In this document: in pieces, positions 51,424 to 62,505 of the stretch
Position numbering within the stretch: the stretch's first letter is position 1
Layout of the letters: the number at the start of each line of letters is the position of its first letter
Origin: Acidobacteriaceae bacterium
GTDB taxonomy: Bacteria > Acidobacteriota > Terriglobia > Terriglobales > Acidobacteriaceae
DNA length: 64,000 nt
Assembly: GCA_028283655.1 (NCBI GenBank)
Contig: JAPWKE010000001.1
Location: 89,082-153,081 of the forward strand
Reading direction: 5' to 3'
Position numbers and translations under genes: made by a program
The notes under the pieces: model-generated
What the model was told of the DNA's origin: nothing
Seen by the model: only the letters and a program-made list of their open reading frames with translations
Database searches by the model: none

Positions 51424-52125
51424 TTAGGCGTCCATCGCGCCTGAGTACACCGCCATGCCGGCAACGGCATCGACGCCCATCGCGTCCAGCGAGTCCACTT
51501 CGGCCTGCTCCTTGATGCCACCGGCGACGATCAACTGCTTCGCCGTGGTGGAGCGCAGGATGGCCGCTACGTCCATGGGGAAACCGCTCATCGTGCCTTC
51601 GGTGTCGACGTGGGTGTAGAGGAACGCTGCGCAGGAGTCTTCCAGCCAGGTGACGGCCTCTTCGGGCGTCAGCGAGACGGTTTCCTTCCATCCGCGAACG
51701 GCGACGTTGCCGCCCTTGGTGTCCACGGAGAAGCAGAGCACGTCTTCGCCAAGCTCCTTCTTCAGGCTCTCGGCAAACTCCAGCTTGATGAGCTTGTGGC
51801 GACGCTTCTCGCCTTCTTCGGCAGCACCGAAGAGCGAGGAGCCAAAGATCACGCGCTTTGCGCCAGCATCGAGCAGCTTCTTCGCGTCGTCTGCAGTCTT
51901 CAGGCCGCCGCCCACCTGCACGGGCAGGCGCTTGGCGATCATCTCGACGAGTTCGCGGTTGTCACCCTGCCGCATCGCGGCGTCTAGGTCGATCAACTGC
52001 ACCATCGGGTACTTCGAGAAACGCTCGATCCAGTAATCAAAATCATCAAACGAGAGCTTGAGCTTTTCGCCCTGCACCAACTGGACGATCTTCCCGCCCA
52101 TCAAATCAATCGAAGGAATCAGCAT
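51424..52125 (-). CDS. hisA: Phosphoribosylformimino-AICAR ribotide isomerase (HisA)
   Basis: 233 residues, (beta-alpha)8 barrel; opens ribose of ProFAR in histidine synthesis. Catalytic Asp7 (MLIPSIDLMGGK) and Asp135 (CFSVDTKGGNVAVRGW) are placed as expected, with VQVGGGLKTADDAKKLL and IVAGGIKEQAEV phosphate-binding loops. It has an unusual charged helix (EEGEKRRHKLIKLE) around residue 105-118. Last gene of the operon, 153 bp after hisF. Confidence 0.93.
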   Translation of the reverse strand: MLIPSIDLMGGKIVQLVQGEKLKLSFDDFDYWIERFSKYPMVQLIDLDAAMRQGDNRELVEMIAKRLPVQVGGGLKTADDAKKLLDAGAKRVIFGSSLFGAAEEGEKRRHKLIKLEFAESLKKELGEDVLCFSVDTKGGNVAVRGWKETVSLTPEEAVTWLEDSCAAFLYTHVDTEGTMSGFPMDVAAILRSTTAKQLIVAGGIKEQAEVDSLDAMGVDAVAGMAVYSGAMDA

Positions 52126-52176
52126 GGCTTTAGTATCTCAGGCGTCGCTTACTTTTCGTGTCTGGGCAAAATACAA

Positions 52177-52272
52177 AAGGAGCACATTCTCTGTGCTCCT
52201 CTGTGTTTCACCGTGGCCGCGGTGTTCGCTACTTTCGTGGCGAGCCTTAGCGTAGTGGCGTTTTCTTTTTGC
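52177..52272. repeat. Intergenic repeat copy A (hisF-hisA gap)
   Basis: The stretch GTGTTCGCT..TTTCGTGGCGA..TTAGCGTAGTGGCGTTTTC at 52222-52265 recurs with few changes in the hisH-hisF gap. Its 5' part (TCTCTGTGCTCCTCTGTGT) resembles the right arm of the long inverted repeat at 29203-29248. A hairpin AGGAGCACA/TGTGCTCCT lies just before it (about 52179-52200). Confidence 0.65.
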
Positions 52273-52278
52273 CTGCGC

Positions 52279-53049
52279 TCAGCAAGGCAGCCTCATCGGC
52301 ACACCGCTCTTGGCTACTTCAGCCTTCAACGCGCGTGAGTCCGTAATGCCGAAGTGGAAGATGCTCGCCGCCAGAGCGGCATCGGCCTTGCCGCGCGTGA
52401 ACACATCGGCAAAGTGCGCTGCATTTCCCGCACCGCCAGAGGCGATTACGGGAATCTGCACCGCTTCGCTGACCGCTGCGGTGAGTTCGCAGTCGAAGCC
52501 GTTGCGCATGCCGTCGGTGTCCATGCTCGTCAGAAGAATCTCGCCAGCGCCACGTTGCTCGGCCTCCTGGGCCCACTCGACGACGCGCCGTCCGGTTGGT
52601 TTGCGTCCGCCGCTTACGAAGACTTCCGCTTCATGCGGATCTTTGCCTTCGCGCCGCGCATCGATTGCCACGATCACGGCCTGCGCACCAAAACTGCCGC
52701 CGATCTCGCCGATTAGCTCCGGCCGCACAATCGCGCTGGAGTTGATCGAGACCTTGTCCGCACCTGCGTTGAAGACCGCCGCAGCATCCTCTGCAGAGCG
52801 AATGCCTCCGCCCACGGTGAACGGCACGAATAGCTTCTCTGCCGTGCGCTTCACTGTGTCGAGCAGTGTTCCGCGGCCTTCATGCGTTGCGGTAATGTCG
52901 AGCAGCACGATCTCGTCGGCTCCGGCAGCGGCATGGCGGTGTGCTAACTCCGCCGGATCACCCGCGTCGATGATGTCCACAAACTGGATGCCTTTGACGA
53001 CGCGTCCACCACGCACGTCCAGGCAAGCGATCACTCGTTTCGTCAGCAA
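52279..53049 (-). CDS. hisF: Imidazole glycerol phosphate synthase subunit HisF
   Basis: 256 residues from the TTG at 53049; this start has GGAG 7 nt upstream and places the catalytic pair exactly at the canonical Asp11 ([10 protein letters not shown]) and Asp130 ([11 protein letters not shown]). Upstream open frame lacks start signals. HisF uses ammonia from HisH to close the imidazole ring and release AICAR. Blocks [13 protein letters not shown] and VIASGGAGN are typical. Confidence 0.97.
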
Positions 53050-53058
53050 AGTTCTTCT

Positions 53059-53148
53059 CCGCGTTTCTCTGTGCGCCTCAGCGTCCACCGTGTTCGCTTT
53101 TCGTGGCGAATCCTGGTGTCTTTAGCGTCGTGGCGTTCTCTTTTCGTG
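53059..53148. repeat. Intergenic repeat copy B (hisH-hisF gap)
   Basis: Shares GTGTTCGCTTTTCGTGGCGA (53090-53109) and TTTAGCGTCGTGGCGTTCTC (53121-53140) with copy A. It fills almost the whole 112-bp gap between hisH and hisF. Confidence 0.65.
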
Positions 53149-53161
53149 ACGCCAAGTTTAC

Positions 53162-53773
53162 TTACAACTCAAGAAAGTTCTTCAGTACTTTCAGCCCGGT
53201 CTCTGCGCTCTTCTCCGGATGAAACTGGACGCCCATTACGTTGTCGCGTTCGACTGCAGCCGTAAACTCGCCACCGTAAGAAGTCGTCGCCGCAGTATCA
53301 GCGCTCACCGGAGCGCGCCACGAGTGCGTGTAGTACACAAAGCTCCCCGACTCAACGCCCTTGAACAGCTTAGAGTCTGGGTGAATATTCTCCAGAGAGT
53401 TCCATCCCACGTGCGGGGACTTCAGCTCCGCGCCCTCGAAGGTGGCAGGGAAGTGCTCGCACTTCGCGCTGAAGTGGCATAAGCCTTCCGTGGCTTCGGC
53501 CTCGGTCGAGCCTTCGTAGAGCCACTGCAGTCCCACGCAAATGCCGAGAAACGGCGTGGCTTTGGCGATCGCCTCGCGCGTCGCTTCGGTCAGCTTCAGA
53601 TCGTGCAGCAACTGCGTCGCCCGAAAGTGTCCTACGCCAGGCAGCACAATCTTGTCCGCGCGCAGCACGTCTTCCGGAGCCTGCGTGACGACGATGTCCT
53701 CTGCGCCGAGAAACTTCAGCGTCTTCACCACGCTGGTCAGATTGCCCGCTTTGTAATCAATGACTGCGATCAT
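53162..53773 (-). CDS. hisH: Imidazole glycerol phosphate synthase glutaminase subunit HisH
   Basis: 203 residues. Class I glutaminase giving ammonia to HisF. Triad Cys79 (FLGICVGLQW), His185 and Glu187 (FHPEKS); oxyanion loop PGVGHF. Its ATG starts immediately after the TAG of the DUF2164 gene with no gap. Confidence 0.97.
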   Translation of the reverse strand: MIAVIDYKAGNLTSVVKTLKFLGAEDIVVTQAPEDVLRADKIVLPGVGHFRATQLLHDLKLTEATREAIAKATPFLGICVGLQWLYEGSTEAEATEGLCHFSAKCEHFPATFEGAELKSPHVGWNSLENIHPDSKLFKGVESGSFVYYTHSWRAPVSADTAATTSYGGEFTAAVERDNVMGVQFHPEKSAETGLKVLKNFLEL

Positions 53774-54040
53774 CTACCGTCGCCTCTTCTGCTTTGCCCA
53801 GTATCCAAACTCATCCACATAGAGTTCCCCGTCGAGATCGGCAACTCTCTGCTGTATGCGCGTCGAGGCATCCGAGACCGCCTTGTTGTACACCGCAGGC
53901 GCAATTTCTTCGAGAAAGAAATCCAGTAGCATGCCAGCAGGTAAATCACCGATCGGCTCCGGCATATGTTCTTCGAAGTAACGCTTCAGCGAAGCAATCG
54001 CTTCTGTCCGCTTCGCTTTATCCAGTTCAATCTCTGCCAT
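53774..54040 (-). CDS. DUF2164 family protein
   Basis: 88 residues. Clear DUF2164 pattern: IELDKAKRTEAIASLKRYFEE, IGDLPAGMLLDFFLEEIAPAVYN, RVADLDGELYVDEFGYW. Function unknown; small helical proteins. It sits between hisB and hisH, abutting hisH with zero spacing, so it must be co-translated with the his genes. ATG at 54040 preferred over 54043 for SD distance (GAGG 6 nt). Confidence 0.85.
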   Translation of the reverse strand: MAEIELDKAKRTEAIASLKRYFEEHMPEPIGDLPAGMLLDFFLEEIAPAVYNKAVSDASTRIQQRVADLDGELYVDEFGYWAKQKRRR

Positions 54041-54067
54041 CATCGCCTCACTAACTTCTAACCAGAG

Positions 54068-54703
54068 CTACAGCAAGCCCTTCGTGCTCGGCAGCAGATC
54101 CTTCATGCGCTCATCCTTTGAGCAGGCACCGCGCATCGCGCGTGCAAACGCCTTGAAGATTGCCTCGATCTTGTGATGGTTGTTGCGGCCGTACATCGTC
54201 TTCACATGCACGTTCGCTTTCGCGCCGCGGGCAAAGCCGTCGAAGAAGTCCGGCACAAGCTCTGTGACTAGATCGCCGACCACGGGAGCGGTGAGCTGGT
54301 CGTCGACCACACAAGCCACGCGGCCCGAAAGGTCTACAGCAGAAACTGCCAGGGTCTCATCCATCGTCATGACGAAGTAGCCCGCGCGCATGATGCCACG
54401 CTTGTCGCCCAGAGCTTCGGCAAACGCCTCGCCCAGCGCGATACCGACGTCTTCGACCGTGTGGTGTTGGTCGACATCGAGGTCGCCAATGCACTTCAAC
54501 TCGAGGTCGAAGCCGCCATGCTTGGCGAAGCTTTCGAGCATGTGGTCGAAGAAGCGGATGCCCGTGGAGACCTTGTACGTGCCCAGGCCATCTACATTGA
54601 GACGCAGGTTGATGTCGGTCTCGAGTGTCTTGCGGTTGACTATTCCTACACGCTCTCCATCATTGGTCTGCGTGGTGCCGATCTCTTCGAGCATGTCGCT
54701 CAT
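54068..54703 (-). CDS. hisB: Imidazoleglycerol-phosphate dehydratase (HisB)
   Basis: 211 residues, monofunctional (no phosphatase domain). Mn-binding repeats [13 protein letters not shown] and [14 protein letters not shown] plus [13 protein letters not shown] are diagnostic. ATG at 54703 with AAGGAG 7 nt upstream and ATGA overlap with the upstream small membrane gene. Histidinol-phosphatase is therefore elsewhere. Confidence 0.97.
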
Positions 54704-54888
54704 CGTTCTGTCTCCTTCAACTTAGTGAACAATACAATCGCGTAGATAAGTGTGCAGAGCATGACGGCTATCCAGAGTGCTACCAGTATGTGATGCCCGC
54801 GCAGCAGCACCGGGCCACCGCTCATGCAGGCCACTCCTGCGCAGAGCAGGACGACTTTGCGGCGCTGTGGCGTCAGTTGCTTACTCAT
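54700..54888 (-). CDS. Small membrane protein inside the his operon (62 aa)
   Basis: Two transmembrane segments (about residues 13-29 and 34-54) after a basic N-terminus. It overlaps hisC by 8 nt and hisB by 4 nt, so it is embedded and translationally coupled. No family recognised; no reason from chemistry to expect it in histidine synthesis. Confidence 0.65.
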
Positions 54889-56122
54889 ACTCGCGCTCTT
54901 CGCCGCTTGCGCGGCCCTGCGAACTCACGCTCTCTGCCGTGGTCCACTGCATCTCATCGAAGACTGCGCGTAAAGCGTTCAAGCCCTTCGTGACCTGCTC
55001 GCTGATGCCGACGGTGATGCGCACGTAACCATCGCAGCCGGGATCGGCGGAGCGGTCGCGCAGCAGTACGCCGTGTTCGCGCATGCGCGTCACGACTTCC
55101 TTGTGGCGTGGGCCGATGTCCATCAGCACGAAGTTCGACGCGCTCGGCCAGGTATGCACACCCCACGACTGTAACGATTGCTGGATGCGCTCGCGGCCTG
55201 CGTGGATCTCCTTCACATACCAGTTGAGGTACTCCTCATCAGCCAGCGCCTCGGGCAGCACTTCGAGTGCGACGCCGTTGACGTTATATGGCGAGGCAAC
55301 TTTCTTCAGGAAGTTGATCAGGCGAGCGTCGCCGACCATCATGCCGAGGCGAAGGTTCGCGAGGCCGTAGGCTTTCGAGAACGTGCGGCCGATGATGATG
55401 TTCTTGACGCGTGGCACGTCAGCCATGACGGTCTCGCCGAAGAAGTGGAAGTACGCTTCGTCGACGAAGATGACCGCTTGCGGTGCGGCGGCAGCGATGG
55501 CGAGGATGTGCTCGCGGCTGACGGTGGCACCGGTAGGGTTGTTCGGTGTGGCGAGCAGCACCATCTTGGTCTTCGGTGTGATCGCGGCCATCATGCGCTC
55601 GAACGGGAAGCTGAGGTCGTCGCCCGACTGCACGCGCACGATGTTCTGGGTCTGTATGCTGCAACTCACGTCGTACATGAAGAAGCTTGGTGTGTTGATC
55701 ACCACTTCATCGTTGGCTTCAAGAAACGCGCAGGCCAGCAGGTGAATGCCTTCGTCCACGCCGTTGGTCAGCAGGACCTCGTCTGGCTGCAACCCGAAAT
55801 GCTTCGCCGCTTCGGCTTCGCCATGCCCACGCTCGGGGTAGATGGTGAGGCCTTCTGCGGTGAGTTTCTGCAGGCGAGCGAAGACACGCGGGCTGGGCGC
55901 GACAGTGTTCTCGTTGAAGTCGAGGCGCAGCAGGTCGCGGCTCGCCAGCGGCGGATGATACTCCGGCATGGAGAGCACGTTGGGGCGCGGCTGTACTTCC
56001 GCAGCGCGGGGCAGGTGGCTCAGGCTATGCAGCAACTCGTGCGCATCGTGACCGCCTTCGGCACGAAGTTCATCGAGCAACGATTGCGGGATTCCGCCCG
56101 CCAGCTTCGACGCCACACTCAT
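54881..56122 (-). CDS. hisC: Histidinol-phosphate aminotransferase (HisC)
   Basis: 413 residues, PLP enzyme. LRLDFNENTVAPSP substrate arm, TNGVDEGIHLLACAF, ATPNNPTGA, DEAYFHFFG, and PLP Lys in IGRTFSKAYGLANLRLG. An N-terminal extension of about 50 residues (LLDELRAEGGHDAHELLHSL) precedes the fold and makes it longer than usual (about 360). ATGA overlap with hisD. Confidence 0.95.
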   Translation of the reverse strand: MSVASKLAGGIPQSLLDELRAEGGHDAHELLHSLSHLPRAAEVQPRPNVLSMPEYHPPLASRDLLRLDFNENTVAPSPRVFARLQKLTAEGLTIYPERGHGEAEAAKHFGLQPDEVLLTNGVDEGIHLLACAFLEANDEVVINTPSFFMYDVSCSIQTQNIVRVQSGDDLSFPFERMMAAITPKTKMVLLATPNNPTGATVSREHILAIAAAAPQAVIFVDEAYFHFFGETVMADVPRVKNIIIGRTFSKAYGLANLRLGMMVGDARLINFLKKVASPYNVNGVALEVLPEALADEEYLNWYVKEIHAGRERIQQSLQSWGVHTWPSASNFVLMDIGPRHKEVVTRMREHGVLLRDRSADPGCDGYVRITVGISEQVTKGLNALRAVFDEMQWTTAESVSSQGRASGEEREYE

Positions 56123-57381
56123 CGCATCTTCACCCGCACGCTCTCGGCGTGTCCCTTCAAGCCTTCTGCTTCAGCCAGCGCGATCGTGTGCGGGCCGACC
56201 TCGCGCAATCCGTCGCGCGTGTACTGCTGCACGGTGATCACCTTGACGAAGTCCATCACGCTCAACCCGCCGCGCAGACGCCCGTTGCGTCCGGTGGGCA
56301 GCACGTGGTTTGGACCGGAAATGTAATCACCCATCGATTGCGGGGTGAAGTGTCCGATAAACACCGAGCCTGCGTTCTTCACCCAGCGCAGATCGCTTCC
56401 AGCATCGACGGTGAGATGCTCGGGTGCGAGACGGTTGGTCAGAGACTGCGCTTCTTCCACTGTTCCGGTCACAAAGGCATAGCCTTGTGCGGCCAGCGAA
56501 ATCTTCGCGAGCTCATTGTCTGCAGCCTGCTTGTCCGTTTCTGCAGCGACTGCTTCTGCGAGTTCAAGCTTGCTCGTAATCAAGATCGGCAACGCTTCGG
56601 GATCATGCTCTGCCTGCGCCACGAGATCGGCAGCGATGCCGGCAGCATCGCCCACTTCGCTCGTTACAACGATCTCGGTGGGGCCTGCAGGCATGTCGAT
56701 GCCCGTGTCTTCACGAGACACAGCCTGCTTGGCCGCTGTCACGTACAGATTGCCAGGCCCAACGATCTTGTCCACGGCCGCAATAGTTGCCGTGCCATAG
56801 GCCATCGCCGCAATCGCCTGCGCTCCGCCCACACGATAGAACTCGGTCACGCCTGCAAGATAGCCAGCCGCAAGCGTCTCCTTCGCAGGCTTGGGCGAGC
56901 ACACCACGATGCGCTCCACGCCAGCCACCTGCGCCGGAGTGGTCGTCATCAGCAGCGTCGAGGGCAGGGGATAGCGTCCACCCGGAACGTAACAACCCAC
57001 CGCGCCCAGCGGACGAATGACCTGTCCGACTTCCATGCCGTCGCTCGGCTTGAAGCTCCATGCGCGCGGCAACTGCCGCTCGGCAAAGGCGCGAATGTTG
57101 GCCTGAGCCAGCTTCATCGCCGCCTTCAGCTCTTCGCTGGTCTCGTCCCACGCCGCCTGCATCTCTTCGCGAGTCACCAGCAACGGCTGCTCGTCGGTCA
57201 AGCCATCAAACTTCGCCGCATACTCGCGCGTCGCTTCATCGCCGCGTGTGCGTACCGCTTCCAGGATTTCGCGCACAACGCCATCGACCTTCGCCGTGTT
57301 CGTTGCGCCGCGCATCTCCAACTCGCGAATCACCGCTTCAGTCGCCGCTGCACTTTCGCCGGTCGTCTTCAGAATCTTCAT
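56119..57381 (-). CDS. hisD: Histidinol dehydrogenase (HisD)
   Basis: 420 residues; two-step NAD-dependent oxidation of histidinol to histidine with zinc. Blocks: PLGAVGCYVPGGRYPLPST, VGGAQAIAAMAYGTATI, VDKIVGPGNLYVTAAKQAV, DMPAGPTEIVV, DLVAQAEHDPEA (zinc ligand region) and SGPNHVLPTGRNGRLRGGLSV. Starts 18 bp after a membrane gene. Confidence 0.97.
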   Translation of the reverse strand: MKILKTTGESAAATEAVIRELEMRGATNTAKVDGVVREILEAVRTRGDEATREYAAKFDGLTDEQPLLVTREEMQAAWDETSEELKAAMKLAQANIRAFAERQLPRAWSFKPSDGMEVGQVIRPLGAVGCYVPGGRYPLPSTLLMTTTPAQVAGVERIVVCSPKPAKETLAAGYLAGVTEFYRVGGAQAIAAMAYGTATIAAVDKIVGPGNLYVTAAKQAVSREDTGIDMPAGPTEIVVTSEVGDAAGIAADLVAQAEHDPEALPILITSKLELAEAVAAETDKQAADNELAKISLAAQGYAFVTGTVEEAQSLTNRLAPEHLTVDAGSDLRWVKNAGSVFIGHFTPQSMGDYISGPNHVLPTGRNGRLRGGLSVMDFVKVITVQQYTRDGLREVGPHTIALAEAEGLKGHAESVRVKMR

Positions 57382-57399
57382 TGCTTTCTCTCGCTTCGT

Positions 57400-57897
57400 T
57401 TAGAACCGGCGCTTGCCCTTGTTTGCACCCGGGGGCATATAGCCCGTCGGCATCTGCATTCCCTGGCGGCCTGGCGAACGCATCTGCGCGTCCATCGCAC
57501 GGCGCTCAATGCGTGAGCCTGTCACGACAGCACGCTTTGCGGACTCCTGACTGGCCGGATAAATTTTCTTCGGGTTCTTCGGATCGATCACCACAGGGAT
57601 GCGCGAGCCTGCACTCATCCGCGAGCGTGCATCCACACGCGTTCGCAGCGAGACTTCTCGCGGCGCAGGATCACCCGGCGCCTGCAGGCGCAGCGTCACC
57701 TTGTTCAGGTCGCCCTGGGCCTTGCCAAACATCTTTACCGGCTCGATCGATACCAGCGTGGCGTAGACCACGACACCCGTCGCATCCACTTGCTTCTGAC
57801 GACCGCGCTCCCACAGAAAGCGCAGGATGGTAATCAGCGCCCCCACGACAACAACCGCCAGAATGACGTACCCAACAATCGCAAACGTCAGCTTCAT
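57400..57897 (-). CDS. Membrane protein of unknown function in the his operon (165 aa)
   Basis: ATG at 57897 with AAGGTGA 5 nt upstream. One N-terminal transmembrane segment (VGYVILAVVVVGALITIL), then a soluble beta domain (VYATLVSIEPVKMFGK, PVVIDPKNPKKIYP) reminiscent of DUF3592-like proteins that carry a 'VxYDPxNP' motif, and a Gly/Met/Pro-rich basic tail. Between hisG and hisD. Function unknown. Confidence 0.65.
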   Translation of the reverse strand: MKLTFAIVGYVILAVVVVGALITILRFLWERGRQKQVDATGVVVYATLVSIEPVKMFGKAQGDLNKVTLRLQAPGDPAPREVSLRTRVDARSRMSAGSRIPVVIDPKNPKKIYPASQESAKRAVVTGSRIERRAMDAQMRSPGRQGMQMPTGYMPPGANKGKRRF

Positions 57898-57999
57898 TGA
57901 TTCACCTTCAAAAACGAGATACAAACTTCGAAACACAGGATGCGAATGTGGTTCGAGAGGCGCTCTTTCGAATCATGCCTCTCGAGCCTCGCCTCTTCT

Positions 58000-58878
58000 T
58001 TACAGAACAACCTTGCTCAGCGGGAACTCAACAATTCCCGTGCCGCCCGCTTCCTTCAGCTTCGGCACAATGTCGCGCACCGTGCTCTGCTCCAGAATCG
58101 TGTTTACGGCCACCCAATTCTTGTCGCGCAGTTCGGAGACGGTCGGCGAGTTCAACGCCGGCAGCACGTCGAGCACGGCATCGAGGTTCGCCTTCTCGAC
58201 GTTCAGCATCAGGCCTACCTGGTCCTGAGCGGCCATCGCGCCGTTCAACATCAGGCTCAGCGTCTCAATCTTCTTGCGCTTCCAATCGTCCTGCCATGCG
58301 GTCTTGTTCGCGATGAGCTGCGTCTCGGACTCCATCAGCACTTCGATAATGCGCAGGCGGTTCGCACGCAGCGAGCTTCCTGTTTCGGTCACTTCGACGA
58401 TTGCATCTGCGAGCATCGGGGGCTTTACTTCGGTCGCGCCCCAGCTGAACTCCACCGTCACGGGAATATTGCGCTCGGCGAAGTAGCGCTTCGAGAACTC
58501 CACGAGCTCCGTAGCAATCGTCTTGCCTGCCAGGTCTTCCGGCTTCTGGTAGGGAGAATCTTCCGGCACCGCCAGCACCCACTTCACCTTGGTGCGGCTC
58601 GCCTTGGAGTACGTCAACGACGTGACTCGCTCAACGTCTGCAAGGTTCTCGAGAACCCAGTCGTTGCCCGTCAGGCCAGCGTCCAGTGCGCCATGCTCCA
58701 CGTAGCGAGCCATCTCCTGCGCGCGTACCAGCATGCACTCGATCTCGGTATCGTCGATCGTCGGGAAGTACGAGCGTCCGCTCGCATAAATGTTCCAGCC
58801 TGCGCGTGCGAACAGCGCCAGCGTCGCTTCCTGCAGACTGCCCTTCGGAATTCCCAGCTTCAGCTTCTTCGTTGCCAT
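58000..58878 (-). CDS. hisG: ATP phosphoribosyltransferase, long form (HisG)
   Basis: 292 residues; first step of histidine synthesis and normally feedback-inhibited by histidine. [43 protein letters not shown] and the [17 protein letters not shown] loop are present. The last ~80 residues ([20 protein letters not shown] to the end) form the ACT-like regulatory domain, so it is the hisZ-independent long form. ATG at 58878 with AAGGACG upstream. Confidence 0.96.
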
Positions 58879-58922: not shown

Positions 58923-59258
58923 CTAACGAGCGATCGGCTTCGTGAAGCAGCTCACGGTACCTTCGTGGCATACCAGCCCATCGCCTTCCACGTCCACGCG
59001 GAAGAGCAGGGCATCGTTGTCGCAGTCGGTCGCTGCGGAGACGATCTTCAGCCGGTTGCCGCTGGTCTCGCCCTTCATCCACAGCTTCGAACGGGTACGC
59101 GACCAGAACGTTACAAACCCGGTCTCCAGCGTCTTCTTCCAGCTCTCTTCGTTCAGAAAGCCCAGCATCAGCACTTCGCCGGTCTTGGCATCCTGTACGA
59201 TCCCTGCCACCATGCCGCCATCTTTTTCAAAGTTGATTGTCGGTACTGCCGTCGTCAT
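58923..59258 (-). CDS. hisI: Phosphoribosyl-AMP cyclohydrolase (HisI)
   Basis: 111 residues: cyclohydrolase domain only, no HisE domain. Metal ligands in [11 protein letters not shown] and [10 protein letters not shown], with [18 protein letters not shown]. Start at 59258 (or the adjacent ATG at 59261) with AAAGGAC. First structural gene of the operon, 50 bp after the attenuator terminator. A separate hisE is expected elsewhere in the genome. Confidence 0.96.
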
Positions 59259-59307
59259 CATTTGTCCTTTTGCCGCCACCGTTTTTGAACCCATCCCGCC
59301 GCGCAGC

Positions 59308-59344
59308 AAAAAGCCCGCTCGCTTAGGATTCGCGGAGGCGGGCT
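59308..59344 (-). terminator. his operon attenuator (terminator)
   Basis: On the minus strand, AGCCCGC (59344-59338) pairs with GCGGGCT (59318-59312), immediately followed by TTTTT (59312-59308). It lies between the His-rich leader ORF and hisI, where it can only make sense as a conditional terminator. The 5' arm GCCCGC could instead pair with GTGGGC at 59418-59413 right after the His codons (6 bp with one wobble), extended by CCG (59350-59348) with CGG (59409-59407). Confidence 0.75.
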
Positions 59345-59383
59345 GCTCGGTGTGTGTTGCTAAACCTGTCGGGAGCTCTGCAT

Positions 59384-59467
59384 TTACTTTGCCGTGCCGG
59401 ACAGGACCGATCGCCCACTCATATGGTGGTGATGGAGATGACCGTGATGGCGCTGCACAAAGCTCAT
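59384..59467 (-). CDS. hisL: His operon leader peptide (27 aa, seven His)
   Basis: ATG at 59467-59465, TAA at 59386-59384. AAGG (59478-59475) lies 7 nt upstream. Residues 7-15 read HHGHLHHHH, that is seven histidines in nine codons (five CAT/CAC in tight runs), in a gene-poor 300-bp leader directly upstream of hisI. Such density is unexpected by chance. Translation of this ORF would pause when charged tRNA-His is scarce, as in the classical enterobacterial his leader. The rest of the peptide (SGRSVLSGTAK) is unremarkable. A stem CCTGTC/GACAGG (59405-59400 with 59370-59365) spans its stop codon. Confidence 0.8.
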   Translation of the reverse strand: MSFVQRHHGHLHHHHMSGRSVLSGTAK

Positions 59468-59480
59468 ATATCTACCTTCT

Positions 59481-59510
59481 ACGCTACGTTCTAAGGCCGG
59501 ATTATGTCAA
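59481..59510 (-). promoter_or_regulatory. Candidate his operon promoter
   Basis: A perfect -35 TTGACA (59510-59505), 18-nt spacer, and a poor -10 TAGCGT (59486-59481). It would start RNA near 59474, at or just after the leader SD, so either the leader peptide is nearly leaderless or the -10 assignment is wrong. Confidence 0.35.
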
Positions 59511-59518
59511 CGTCTGTC

Positions 59519-59546
59519 GGCCGGGAGCGATCCGCCGCTCCCGGCC
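59519..59546 (-). terminator. Hairpin after the phospholipase C gene
   Basis: 11-bp perfect GC-rich stem (59519-59529 with 59536-59546) 13 nt after the stop; no U tract. Confidence 0.5.
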
Positions 59547-59558
59547 GCTTTCGCGAAC

Positions 59559-62084
59559 TTAGACCGTAACGCCGCCCATGACCGGATCCGTAAAGCTCGA
59601 GCGCCCGGTTTCCACGCGGCCTGCAAAGCGCGTGCTGACCGTCTCGCCCTTTACGCTGACGGTGTAGTCATACCAGCCGTGATGTCTGGAGGCGTTCAGA
59701 GGGACCGCCAGCTTCGCGCCCGGCTCCAGCTTCAGCTCATGCCGCTGCTTGCTGTAAGCGTTCTCTGCCACCACGACGTTCACCGCCCTGGTGGAGTCGT
59801 TGCGCAACTGCGCCAGTACGTTGCCGGTAATCGTGCCGCTTGTGCGTTCGTATACGCAGTGCGCTACCACGGGGGAGAGCGTTCCCTGCGCCTGGAACGA
59901 GCGGAAGAATCCGTTTGGCGCGTGGACTTCGATGTCCACCTTGCCGTCGCGGAACATCTCGACGGGGATACCTTCCTGCATGGTGTCTCCCGGCTTCACG
60001 ACAAACGTTGCCACCGCCATGTTCTGGTTGTTCGCGCCGCGCTCGATCACACCGGCCGCGCGCTTGGTGTTGCGGATGTACACGTTGAACGGAGCGCCGT
60101 TGCTGCGCTCACCATGCACGCCTCCGCCAGCGCGGAAGGCCAGCCGGAAGATCTTGCCGTCCGGCGAAAGGCCGCCCTCGCAGTAAAGCTCATACGGCAG
60201 AGCGTTCGAAGGACGAATGCCCGGCTCCTGCCGCGAAGCGTTCGGATACGTCGCGCGGTTCGCATTGTAGGCAGACATCTGCTGCGGCGTCAGCTTCAGA
60301 TAATTCGACGGCACTTCCTTGTAACGCGCCTTCTGAATGCTTTCGACATACTCGTTGCGGTCCAGGAACGGCAGCTTGGCTTCGGTGTTGTCCGCGGGGC
60401 GGAAGCACGAGGTCAGATCGCCGCAGATCGCTCGGCGGAACTGGCTCATGTTCTCCTCATGCACCTTTTTGCCGAACTTCTTCTCCACGAACGCCTCAAT
60501 CAACTGCAGTGAAGACGTGTGATCGCAAAGCTCCGAGTTGACCCAGCCACCGCGACTCCACGGAGACGCCACGACCATCGGCACGCGAAAACCCAGGCCG
60601 ATCGGCCCGCTGCGCGCGTTGTGCTTCGGTACGCCCTGCGCTAGCTCATCCGGCGAGTAGGAGTACTCCAGCGCTACGTCGATCCCTTCGGACGCGCGTC
60701 CGGTCGCCTTGTTCTGCGGGTCCGGCGCCACGTAGGACGGGCCATGGTCAAAGTAGCCGTCATTCTCGTCGTACGTCAGGATGAAGATCGTCTTCTTCCA
60801 GACCTCAGCGTTGCTGGTCAGAATATCCATCGCCTCTGAGACGAACCACGCGCCGTACCAGGGGTGCGCCGGGTGGTCGGAGAACTTGCCCGGCGGCACC
60901 AGCCAGGAAACCGTTGGCAGCGTGCCTTCCTTCACATCCTCGCGGAACTGATAGAGCACGTCACCCTTGGGTACATTCATGCTGCGATTGTGTCCGTCGT
61001 CTTCAAACGCAATCGGCTCCAGCGAGTGGTAGTTCTCGTCGCCCACGTTTGTTACAAATGCGCGCATGTGCAGTTCCTGCTGCGCTTCGGGCAACTGCGT
61101 CAGCGATCCGCCGTGCTCCAACTGGTCCTGCAGAGCCTTCAATGCATCGTGCTTCTGACTTAGCGCGGCTTCGTGATCGCTCTTCATCGTTGCGTCCACG
61201 GTCTCGCCTTGAAGCTGCGCAATGTCTGCCTTCAACGCGTCGATCTGTGACTGCAGCTTCTTCGTGCTGGCGTTGGTCAGATTCACGTTGTAGCAACCAA
61301 AGTGCTCCAGCACATTGCCCACGTTGCAAAGCCACTCATGCTCTTCATGCGGCAGCGCGGCGACGTTTACTTCGTTCTGGTACACGTTCCAGGTCACGCC
61401 TGCTTCGCTCAGCCGCTCAGGAAAGGTCTTCCACTTCAGCTTGCTGTGGTACTGGTCGTTTCGCATGAAGACGGCCGAGTTTGCCTTCTGTTCATCGCGA
61501 ATCGTCCCGGTCCACAGCATCGAGCGGTTCGGTGTCGTGCTCGACATTACGGAACAGTAATGTTGATCGCAGACCGTAAACGCATCGGCCATCGCAAAGT
61601 AGAACGGAATGTCCTCGCGTGTGTAGTGGCCCATTGTGATCGGCACATCGTGATAGTCCACGTTGCTCGAACGCTTCGCATCGATCCACGCATTGTGGTG
61701 CCCGTGGTTCCAGGCGTCGACCTGGGAGTTGCGCGAGTGGGGAATCGACCCCATCCACGTAATCTTGGTGTCGCGAATATCCAGACGCCACGGGATATAG
61801 GTGTCGCCGTTCGCGTTCGTCTGCATAAAGATGGAGTTGTCGTTCGCCTGCCGGATCGCACGCGGGTCGTTGAAGCCGCGCACTCCCTGGAGTGTTCCGA
61901 ACGCATGGTCGAACGAGCGGTTCTCCTGCATCAACACCACGATATGTTCGGCATCGGCCCACGTTGTTCCGGGGTCTGGCGCAATCGCGAACGCCTTGCG
62001 CACTGAGAGCGGAATGCCGCCTGCAAAGCCTGTGGCTCCTGCGATCATTGCTGCCGATTTAAGAAAATTACGCCGTGATTGCAT
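59559..62084 (-). CDS. Phospholipase C, phosphocholine-specific type, Tat-exported
   Basis: 841 residues. Twin-arginine signal (SRRNFLKSAAMIAGATGFAGG). Phosphoesterase core: EHIVVLMQENRSFDHAFGTL, DQHYCSVMSSTTPNRSMLWTG, VSWLVPPGKFSDHPAHP, LTYDENDGYFDHG and GFRVPMVVASPWSRGGWV; two C-terminal DUF756-type beta domains follow (about residues 600-840). An insertion of about 60 residues (about 270-330: STKKLQSQIDALKADIAQL and following) is predicted coiled coil and is not a usual part of the fold. Family enzymes hydrolyse phosphatidylcholine or related lipids; true substrate unproven. Start at 62084 lacks a good SD. Confidence 0.92.
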   Translation of the reverse strand: MQSRRNFLKSAAMIAGATGFAGGIPLSVRKAFAIAPDPGTTWADAEHIVVLMQENRSFDHAFGTLQGVRGFNDPRAIRQANDNSIFMQTNANGDTYIPWRLDIRDTKITWMGSIPHSRNSQVDAWNHGHHNAWIDAKRSSNVDYHDVPITMGHYTREDIPFYFAMADAFTVCDQHYCSVMSSTTPNRSMLWTGTIRDEQKANSAVFMRNDQYHSKLKWKTFPERLSEAGVTWNVYQNEVNVAALPHEEHEWLCNVGNVLEHFGCYNVNLTNASTKKLQSQIDALKADIAQLQGETVDATMKSDHEAALSQKHDALKALQDQLEHGGSLTQLPEAQQELHMRAFVTNVGDENYHSLEPIAFEDDGHNRSMNVPKGDVLYQFREDVKEGTLPTVSWLVPPGKFSDHPAHPWYGAWFVSEAMDILTSNAEVWKKTIFILTYDENDGYFDHGPSYVAPDPQNKATGRASEGIDVALEYSYSPDELAQGVPKHNARSGPIGLGFRVPMVVASPWSRGGWVNSELCDHTSSLQLIEAFVEKKFGKKVHEENMSQFRRAICGDLTSCFRPADNTEAKLPFLDRNEYVESIQKARYKEVPSNYLKLTPQQMSAYNANRATYPNASRQEPGIRPSNALPYELYCEGGLSPDGKIFRLAFRAGGGVHGERSNGAPFNVYIRNTKRAAGVIERGANNQNMAVATFVVKPGDTMQEGIPVEMFRDGKVDIEVHAPNGFFRSFQAQGTLSPVVAHCVYERTSGTITGNVLAQLRNDSTRAVNVVVAENAYSKQRHELKLEPGAKLAVPLNASRHHGWYDYTVSVKGETVSTRFAGRVETGRSSFTDPVMGGVTV

Positions 62085-62505
62085 CTTTCGTTCCGCCCTG
62101 TTCCCGCATTCGTTGCGAAGTGTCGATGCCCCCAACGGTAGCGCGTGATTATTACAGTCAAGCTACACCGCACCGTGTATCACCCGTGTCGTGTTCGCAT
62201 ATCACCCGTGTTTTCCCCACAAAATCGCACTCTGTCATAGATTATTCGCATTCCATTTACTGTCCTGTTGCGATTACGGAGACGCCTCTCCCATAAGCTT
62301 CAGGCATCGCAATCTGAATCGCGGGACGAGAATCGCACCAGGCCTTCAGCCTGCTGACACTATCGACCGTCTGCGAAAAATTACACGCGCCTGGTTTTGC
62401 TGAGTAACAAAAGGCCACCTGCTGCTTCCGCAGCGGGCACGCCCTTGCTCGGCCTTGGCCCGGCGAATCTACGCGCTGCGCAAACCCGCGCAGAGGAGTC
62501 TGTAC
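62085..62505. other. Divergent intergenic region with hairpins
   Basis: 421 bp. It contains ATCACCCGTGT twice (about 62178-62188 and 62200-62212), an 8-bp hairpin CCTGCTGC/GCAGCGGG (about 62418-62437) and a 6-bp hairpin CTGCGC/GCGCAG (62476-62493) that touches the SD of the next gene. No known riboswitch class could be matched. Confidence 0.4.

Follow-up and report, generated by a model that had tools for sequence, protein, structure and literature searches.

The window, a stretch of 64,000 nucleotides from an Acidobacteriaceae bacterium (contig JAPWKE010000001.1), carries a histidine biosynthesis operon on its minus strand, with hisI (ATG at 59261 or 59258, preceded by AAAGGA) as its first gene and the remaining genes in the order given in Table 1. 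We read the aminotransferase as hisC by context, and the glutamine amidotransferase and the two PF00977 proteins are presumably hisH and hisF plus hisA, respectively, on the basis of context. Two additional ORFs are interspersed among these genes, one without any Pfam or NCBIfam match (57400-57936, between hisG and hisD) and one for a DUF2164 protein (53774-54043, between hisB and hisH). A gene matching TIGR03396, phosphocholine-specific phospholipase C, lies upstream (59559-62135) on the same strand as the leader described here, with 91 nt between its end and the leader ATG.

An initial annotation of this region had described a 27-codon ORF with seven His codons in nine upstream of hisI, and direct reading (59467-59384, minus strand) confirms it: the His codons are numbers 7, 8, 10 and 12-15, and the run reads CAT CAC GGT CAT CTC CAT CAC CAC CAT. 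This exact seven-His pattern has a single occurrence in the 4.27-Mb genome to which the window belongs. Likewise present is the GC-rich stem with a U5 tail that had been reported after the leader stop and before hisI, with arms AGCCCGC (59344-59338) and GCGGGCT (59318-59312) and a five-T run (59312-59308); it begins 39 nt from the leader stop codon, where 40 had been claimed.

Table 1. Features of the his leader region and operon, in window coordinates
Feature	Coordinates	Strand	Evidence
-35 element TTGACA of predicted promoter	59505..59510	-	Sole strict match in window; TTGACA in 84/98 and TTGACT in 12/98 loci
-10 element TAGCGT	59481..59486	-	18-nt spacer; 13 nt to leader ATG
Leader ORF, 27 codons plus TAA, MSFVQRHHGHLHHHHMSGRSVLSGTAK	59384..59467	-	Direct reading; His-rich ORF in 98/98 distinct homologous loci
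Protector hairpin (1:2)	59410..59433	-	Window fold; equivalent family helix covaries, but in a register that the window does not share
Antiterminator strand (segment 2), GAGTGGGC	59413..59420	-	Partner of 59343-59335 when folded with a stalled ribosome
Segment 3: terminator 5' arm and loop start, antiterminator partner, one bulged C	59335..59343	-	Window fold; family antiterminator
Intrinsic terminator AGCCCGC...GCGGGCT TTTT	59308..59344	-	Direct reading; T-tailed hairpin in 98/98 loci
hisI, phosphoribosyl-AMP cyclohydrolase, first operon gene	58923..59261	-	PF01502 (3e-30); NF000768 over cut-off
hisG, ORF without family hit, hisD, aminotransferase, hisB, DUF2164 ORF, glutamine amidotransferase, two PF00977 proteins, in order	51424..58878	-	Pfam

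Conservation of the leader and its promoter

The main comparative set consists of 110 hisI upstream loci, reduced to 98 distinct ones by dropping 12 identical upstream sequences. These derive from the best 30 of 51 hisI matches among 61 relatives' genomes and from the best 80 of at least 350 confirmed loci in a scan of genome contigs, and they represent the closest relatives by HisI among the matches listed rather than a random sample. Terriglobus roseus and a Granulicella strain are represented among the loci from the contig scan. A hisI match was absent in 10 of the 61 relatives (e.g., G031 and G037), some of them with nearly complete genomes; these may be histidine auxotrophs or carry a divergent hisI.

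The initial annotation had proposed a search for His-rich ORFs followed by U-tailed hairpins upstream of hisI in other Acidobacteriota, and both were found in every one of the 98 distinct regions; a lack of conserved His codons or terminator in relatives, the outcome named as speaking against attenuation, did not occur. All 98 leaders contain 5 to 8 His in nine codons (5 in 8 loci, 6 in 22, 7 in 53 and 8 in 15), and the T-tailed hairpin lies 20-53 nt past the leader stop, with 91% of the cells of its core stem paired across the 98-locus alignment. As controls, at least five His in nine codons were observed in 0/837 other 450-nt tiles of the window (both strands), in 1/793 random other stretches of the relatives' loci and in 1/980 shuffled leaders. 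The leader start was first picked as TTG in nine loci and as GTG in five, with the nearest ATG preferred for the promoter work, and in 11/98 loci several starts are candidates. Between the leader stop and the terminator (alignment columns 179-184) we noticed by eye a recurrent AGGATC or GAGATC, for which no pairing partner could be established.

With respect to transcription initiation, a predicted promoter stands directly before the leader, with TTGACA in 84 and TTGACT in 12 of the 98 loci, followed after 17 or 18 nt by a -10 hexamer that is mostly TAnnnT. The form TTGAC(A/T)-N17/18-TAnnnT has one match on both strands of the 64-kb window, namely the his-leader promoter, which suggests that the genome has few sites of this strict form. 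The gap between the -10 element and the leader start is 6-10 nt in 86/98 loci (mode 8, 47 loci) versus 5.5% in shuffles, which points to a leader that is probably leaderless or nearly so, with a predicted family 5' UTR of none to a few nucleotides. The gap measures 13 nt in the window, 13 nt in L002 and 12 nt in L017. In the window, the usual -10 to +1 spacing places the predicted start near 59474, giving a predicted 5' UTR of about 7 nt.

One element of the initial annotation falls away here: the AGAAGG at 59480-59475, taken as the Shine-Dalgarno sequence of the leader, sits between the -10 element and the predicted start and is probably not transcribed, since with this promoter the 5' UTR would be very short or missing. 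Shine-Dalgarno-like words of at least 4 nt precede 19/98 leaders versus 86/98 hisI genes (for hisI, the best of several in-frame starts was used). In PMC3160421, leaderless genes are recognized by a TAnnnT that precedes the start codon by about 10-12 nt, together with the absence of a Shine-Dalgarno sequence; compared with this, the first T of the -10 hexamer lies mostly at 14 before the leader start in the 98 loci.

The promoter also bears on whether the hairpin could simply be the terminator of the upstream phospholipase gene, with the leader ORF being spurious. That gene's orientation and its proximity to the leader are what such an arrangement would look like, but the strong predicted promoter sits between the two, the hairpin keeps its position behind the leader ORF in 98/98 loci, and the antiterminator covaries (see below), so that we regard this explanation as barely credible.

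Helices of the leader RNA

In the window, folding with a stalled ribosome yields an antiterminator (2:3) in which GAG (59420-59418) pairs with CTC (59337-59335) and TGGGC (59417-59413) with GCCCG (59343-59339). The pairing of the terminator 5' arm (59343-59338) with GTGGGC (59418-59413) that had been proposed for this region was thus found in substance, with its outermost pair displaced by the bulge. Stacked on this helix in the fold are TCGGT (59410-59406) with ACCGA (59351-59347) and CCTGTC (59405-59400) with GACAGG (59370-59365). In some clades, inspection by eye had suggested a conserved hairpin at the leader stop (TGGCC/GGCCA, with CCTGTC/GACAGG as the window's version), which is unsupported over the 98 loci (mean z -0.3, 25/98 below -1); we treat the CCTGTC/GACAGG hairpin as part of the window's own fold only.

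Across the family, RNAalifold, run unprompted on the 98-row alignment, returns the antiterminator rather than the terminator as consensus, as a helix between the codons just past the His run and the terminator 5' arm. Extended to 11 pairs, this family antiterminator has 88.1% of its cells paired, versus 83.2% when partners are shuffled and 30-45% when the arms are slid, and 57 cells are changed on both sides, versus 22 in shuffles and 45 for a slide of +1. Double changes fall on five of the antiterminator pairs, a number that is not unusual, as 92/500 shuffles reach it. The key pairs alternate between 113-213 UA (43) and CG (34), 114-212 CG (56), UG (23) and UA (8), and 115-210 GC (58), GU (29) and AU (7). 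On a hisI tree, these three pairs show 8, 5 and 3 double changes that keep the pairing and 13, 6 and 1 broken pairs, respectively; the tree is one rough FastTree from about 300 nt, with one parsimony reconstruction. Furthermore, the antiterminator duplex energy is better than that of shuffles (mean z -1.86, 79/98 below -1), and arms taken from other loci pair nearly as well (cognate -25.0 versus noncognate -22.8 kcal/mol).

The window, L002 and L017 depart from the family register, and the window pairing is a shifted register; the plain duplex test for the antiterminator is not significant in these three (z +1.29, +0.83 and +0.89). An antiterminator that is mutually exclusive with the terminator and carries compensatory changes is found for the family, whereas the shifted register of the window's subclade is without such support.

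A third helix, absent from the initial annotation, is built from the His codons themselves. In the window, this protector (1:2) pairs ATC (59433-59431) with GAT (59412-59410) and CCAC (59429-59426) with GTGG (59418-59415), its 5' arm sitting within His codons 12-14. In its family equivalent, the end-of-run His codon (columns 94-96) and the two bases that follow pair with the beginning of the antiterminator strand; this corresponds to the 1:2 protector of the classic model, here made of sensor codons. We observe 94.1% of its cells paired, versus 82.8% shuffled and 10-61% slid, with 71 cells changed on both sides versus 13 in shuffles. The pair of columns 96 and 110, i.e., the wobble base of the His codon and its partner, undergoes 22 inferred changes on the hisI tree, 8 two-sided and 14 one-sided, and is never broken; neighboring protector pairs do break (10 times for columns 98-108, 8 times for 95-111, and 4 and 3 times for others). 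All 34 rows with A as the wobble partner have CAT at this codon, whereas CAC makes up 104/234 of their remaining His codons; when the partner is G, the codon is CAC in 32 rows and CAT in 26 (counts that ignore relatedness and leave out 6/98 rows with no CA or a gap there).

This silent covariation of a His codon suggests that one stretch of RNA is selected both as sensor and as structure, and it weighs on the alternative that the locus encodes a functional, His-rich (metal-binding) micropeptide, or a peptide or terminated RNA acting in trans, with the terminator merely ending a small gene. Conservation of the His run would suit such a product, and the leader peptide and attenuator RNA of Sinorhizobium meliloti do act in trans (PMC7298713). 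Against this, the wobble base that covaries with its RNA partner is silent in the peptide, and the peptide outside the His run differs by clade (SVLAAVSG versus MPADCHGL) although most of the pairing persists. We consider a peptide or trans-acting function improbable.

The initial annotation had also suggested folding the leader RNA with and without a ribosome at the His codons, and here the outcome depends on the model: the window switches in the full-length model and does not in the snapshot taken before the terminator 3' arm emerges. With a ribosome placed at each codon (footprint sizes being assumed in all fold models), the full-length terminator probability of the window stays at 0.93-0.96 except when the A site is at codons 10, 11, 12 and 13, where it is 0.75, 0.39, 0.33 and 0.48, and adding 30 nt of upstream sequence lowers it to 0.11-0.12 for codons 12 and 13. 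Stalling at His codons 7, 8, 14 and 15 is without effect on the terminator in the full-length model. In the snapshot, the window antiterminator has a probability of 0.94-0.99 alike for free RNA, for a ribosome at the stop codon and for a stall at codons 7-13; since these states are not separated, the in silico switch of the window is seen in the full-length model only.

Similar variation is observed across the 98 loci. Stalling cuts termination by more than 0.3 in only 31/98 at full-length equilibrium, and in the snapshot the antiterminator exceeds its stop-codon value by more than 0.3 in 56/98 and moves in the wrong direction in 15. A shift of more than 0.3 appears in at least one model in 69/98 loci and in both in 18/98. 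Kinetics, which are not part of these models, probably matter for the switch.

Distribution across Acidobacteriota

A second set comprised 80 further upstream regions (62 of hisI and 18 of hisG). Upstream regions were covered for all 51 hisI matches from the 61 relatives' genomes, for 45 of 98 further matched genomes (3 overlapping the earlier set) and, for hisG, for 18 of 99 genomes with a match. An ORF with at least four His in nine codons was present in 47/80, including 13/13 regions in the window's family, 10/10 in another family of the order, 5/10 at class level, 9/27 elsewhere in the phylum, 10/18 hisG regions and 0/2 of the last hisI regions. By eye, about ten of 22 hisI regions without a leader follow an apparent hisF end, so that the operon starts elsewhere in these cases. 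The set is partly dependent, as the leader of L119 is identical to that of L072 and 13 of the 47 leaders come from the window's family.

Among these 47 leaders the hairpin is found in 42, and the antiterminator duplex has a mean z of -1.83 (28/42 below -1); outside the window's family, the corresponding values are -1.61 and 16/29. The -10 to start gap is 6-10 nt in 31/47 second-set leaders, and in 18/34 of those outside the window's family. The leaders span 20 families by the tool's labels (counting f1), with the hairpin missing or doubtful in five; within hisG regions, the terminator was not found for the leaders of G198, G077 and G146 and was doubtful in G134 and G095. Candidate leaders of this kind are thus seen before hisI or hisG in roughly 20 families, in some of them weakly.

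Two kinds of hisG-first operons deserve separate mention. L178, L179 and L187 have a His-rich leader ORF without a detected intrinsic terminator, and control there might act through Rho or on translation. Upstream of hisG in G100 and G122 (L182 and L183), CCGGGTGA occurs with TCACCCGG, sequences unrelated to those of the window; here the leader's stop codon lies within the antiterminator strand (CCGGGTGA), which makes the design more compact.

We also asked whether attenuation is general in the window's group, on the examples of leuA and trpE. No consistent Leu or Trp leader was found in 12 loci of each gene from 13 close-relative genomes, the best candidates being stretches of eight codons with 4 Leu or with 3 Trp, in two loci each.

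Proposed mechanism and comparison with known systems

We propose, with a probability of about 0.9, that the leader controls the his operon by ribosome-mediated transcription attenuation, with charged tRNA-His as the signal sensed. The initial annotation had suggested that this logic operates here, and the comparative data support it through conservation in 98/98 loci, the RNAalifold antiterminator and compensatory changes recurring on the hisI tree. RNA polymerase would start at or just before the leader ORF, with a ribosome following. When histidyl-tRNA is plentiful, the ribosome would clear the His codons, letting the His-codon strand re-pair with the antiterminator strand (1:2), upon which the terminator (3:4) would form and transcription would end before hisI. 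Under a shortage of histidyl-tRNA, the ribosome would instead stall in the His run and cover strand 1; the freed strand 2 could then pair with the terminator 5' arm (2:3), and polymerase would read into hisI and the rest of the operon. The DNA itself displays the ORF and its His run, the terminator, the promoter, their conservation, and the compensatory changes in the family 1:2 and 2:3 helices; translation of the leader, stalling, the direction of regulation and the transcription start are inferred.

A broader reading, towards which we lean only slightly, is that of a phylum-wide his attenuator whose leader peptide is made from leaderless or nearly leaderless RNA. Transcription would start at or within a few nucleotides of the leader AUG, so that ribosome entry would be coupled to the timing of the polymerase from the very beginning of the RNA; the His codons would act both as sensor and as the arm that shuts the antiterminator. 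This architecture would be kept with unrelated sequences in hisI-first and hisG-first operons and be absent at leuA and trpE of close relatives.

Control by a T-box, a riboswitch or a histidine-responsive repressor, with the His ORF being incidental, has precedent in other phyla, where his genes are under the control of T-boxes and of the HisR repressor (PMC9413887). Rfam gave no T-box, His_leader or other leader family over the window at gathering score, and no meaningful leader, His_leader or T-box match in a permissive scan (E up to 10) of 59230-59620; moreover, a His run in 98/98 loci is hard to call incidental. We consider such control very improbable, even more so than a micropeptide. 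As tested by the window scans, the window leader is outside the Rfam His_leader family (presumably RF00514).

The statement in the initial annotation that his attenuation is known from Enterobacteria is too narrow, since His leader peptides are also reported in other Gammaproteobacteria and in Firmicutes. A survey of Actinobacteria reports no conserved RNA element before his operons (PMC1262725), and a leader-gene survey has Acidobacteria among its phyla (PMC4833913). In the literature searched, whose scope left outside most subscription papers and the leader-gene tables of PMC4833913, we found no description of a his attenuator in Acidobacteriota.

The Acidobacteriota leader resembles the enterobacterial his attenuator in having a His-codon run in a short leader ORF, a terminator before the first his gene and a mutually exclusive antiterminator; in the enterobacterial type, a stalled ribosome leads to read-through, as summarized in PMC9413887. 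It differs in that the window is without an Rfam match, in that the first gene is hisI (hisG in other families) and in that most loci have no clear Shine-Dalgarno sequence before the leader. A further contrast, with the E. coli layout, is the three-segment layout in which the His codons form the protector 5' arm.

The same short ORF with consecutive His codons, terminator and antiterminator is described for the Firmicutes attenuators of hisZ, hisS* and his operons (PMC2965389 and PMC9413887), where three to five His codons stand in a row (PMC9413887), versus 5-8 in nine here, a comparison by description only. With respect to the start, the closest likeness is to the trpL-trpE(G) attenuator of the alphaproteobacterium Sinorhizobium meliloti, whose leader peptide is leaderless, its AUG being the RNA 5' end (PMC7298713 and PMC10117765); that system uses Trp codons and was shown by experiment, whereas the Acidobacteriota start is predicted and the gap in the window is longer.

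The putative mechanism is, in its class, that of the textbook his attenuator, apparently widespread in the phylum, and its probable leaderless start is its most distinctive trait. It gives a regulator whose signal and target operon are both defined and for which the comparative support is strong; the apparent leaderless start offers a testable model of coupling without a Shine-Dalgarno sequence. It would also extend his leader-peptide attenuation beyond the Proteobacteria and Firmicutes of the literature found.
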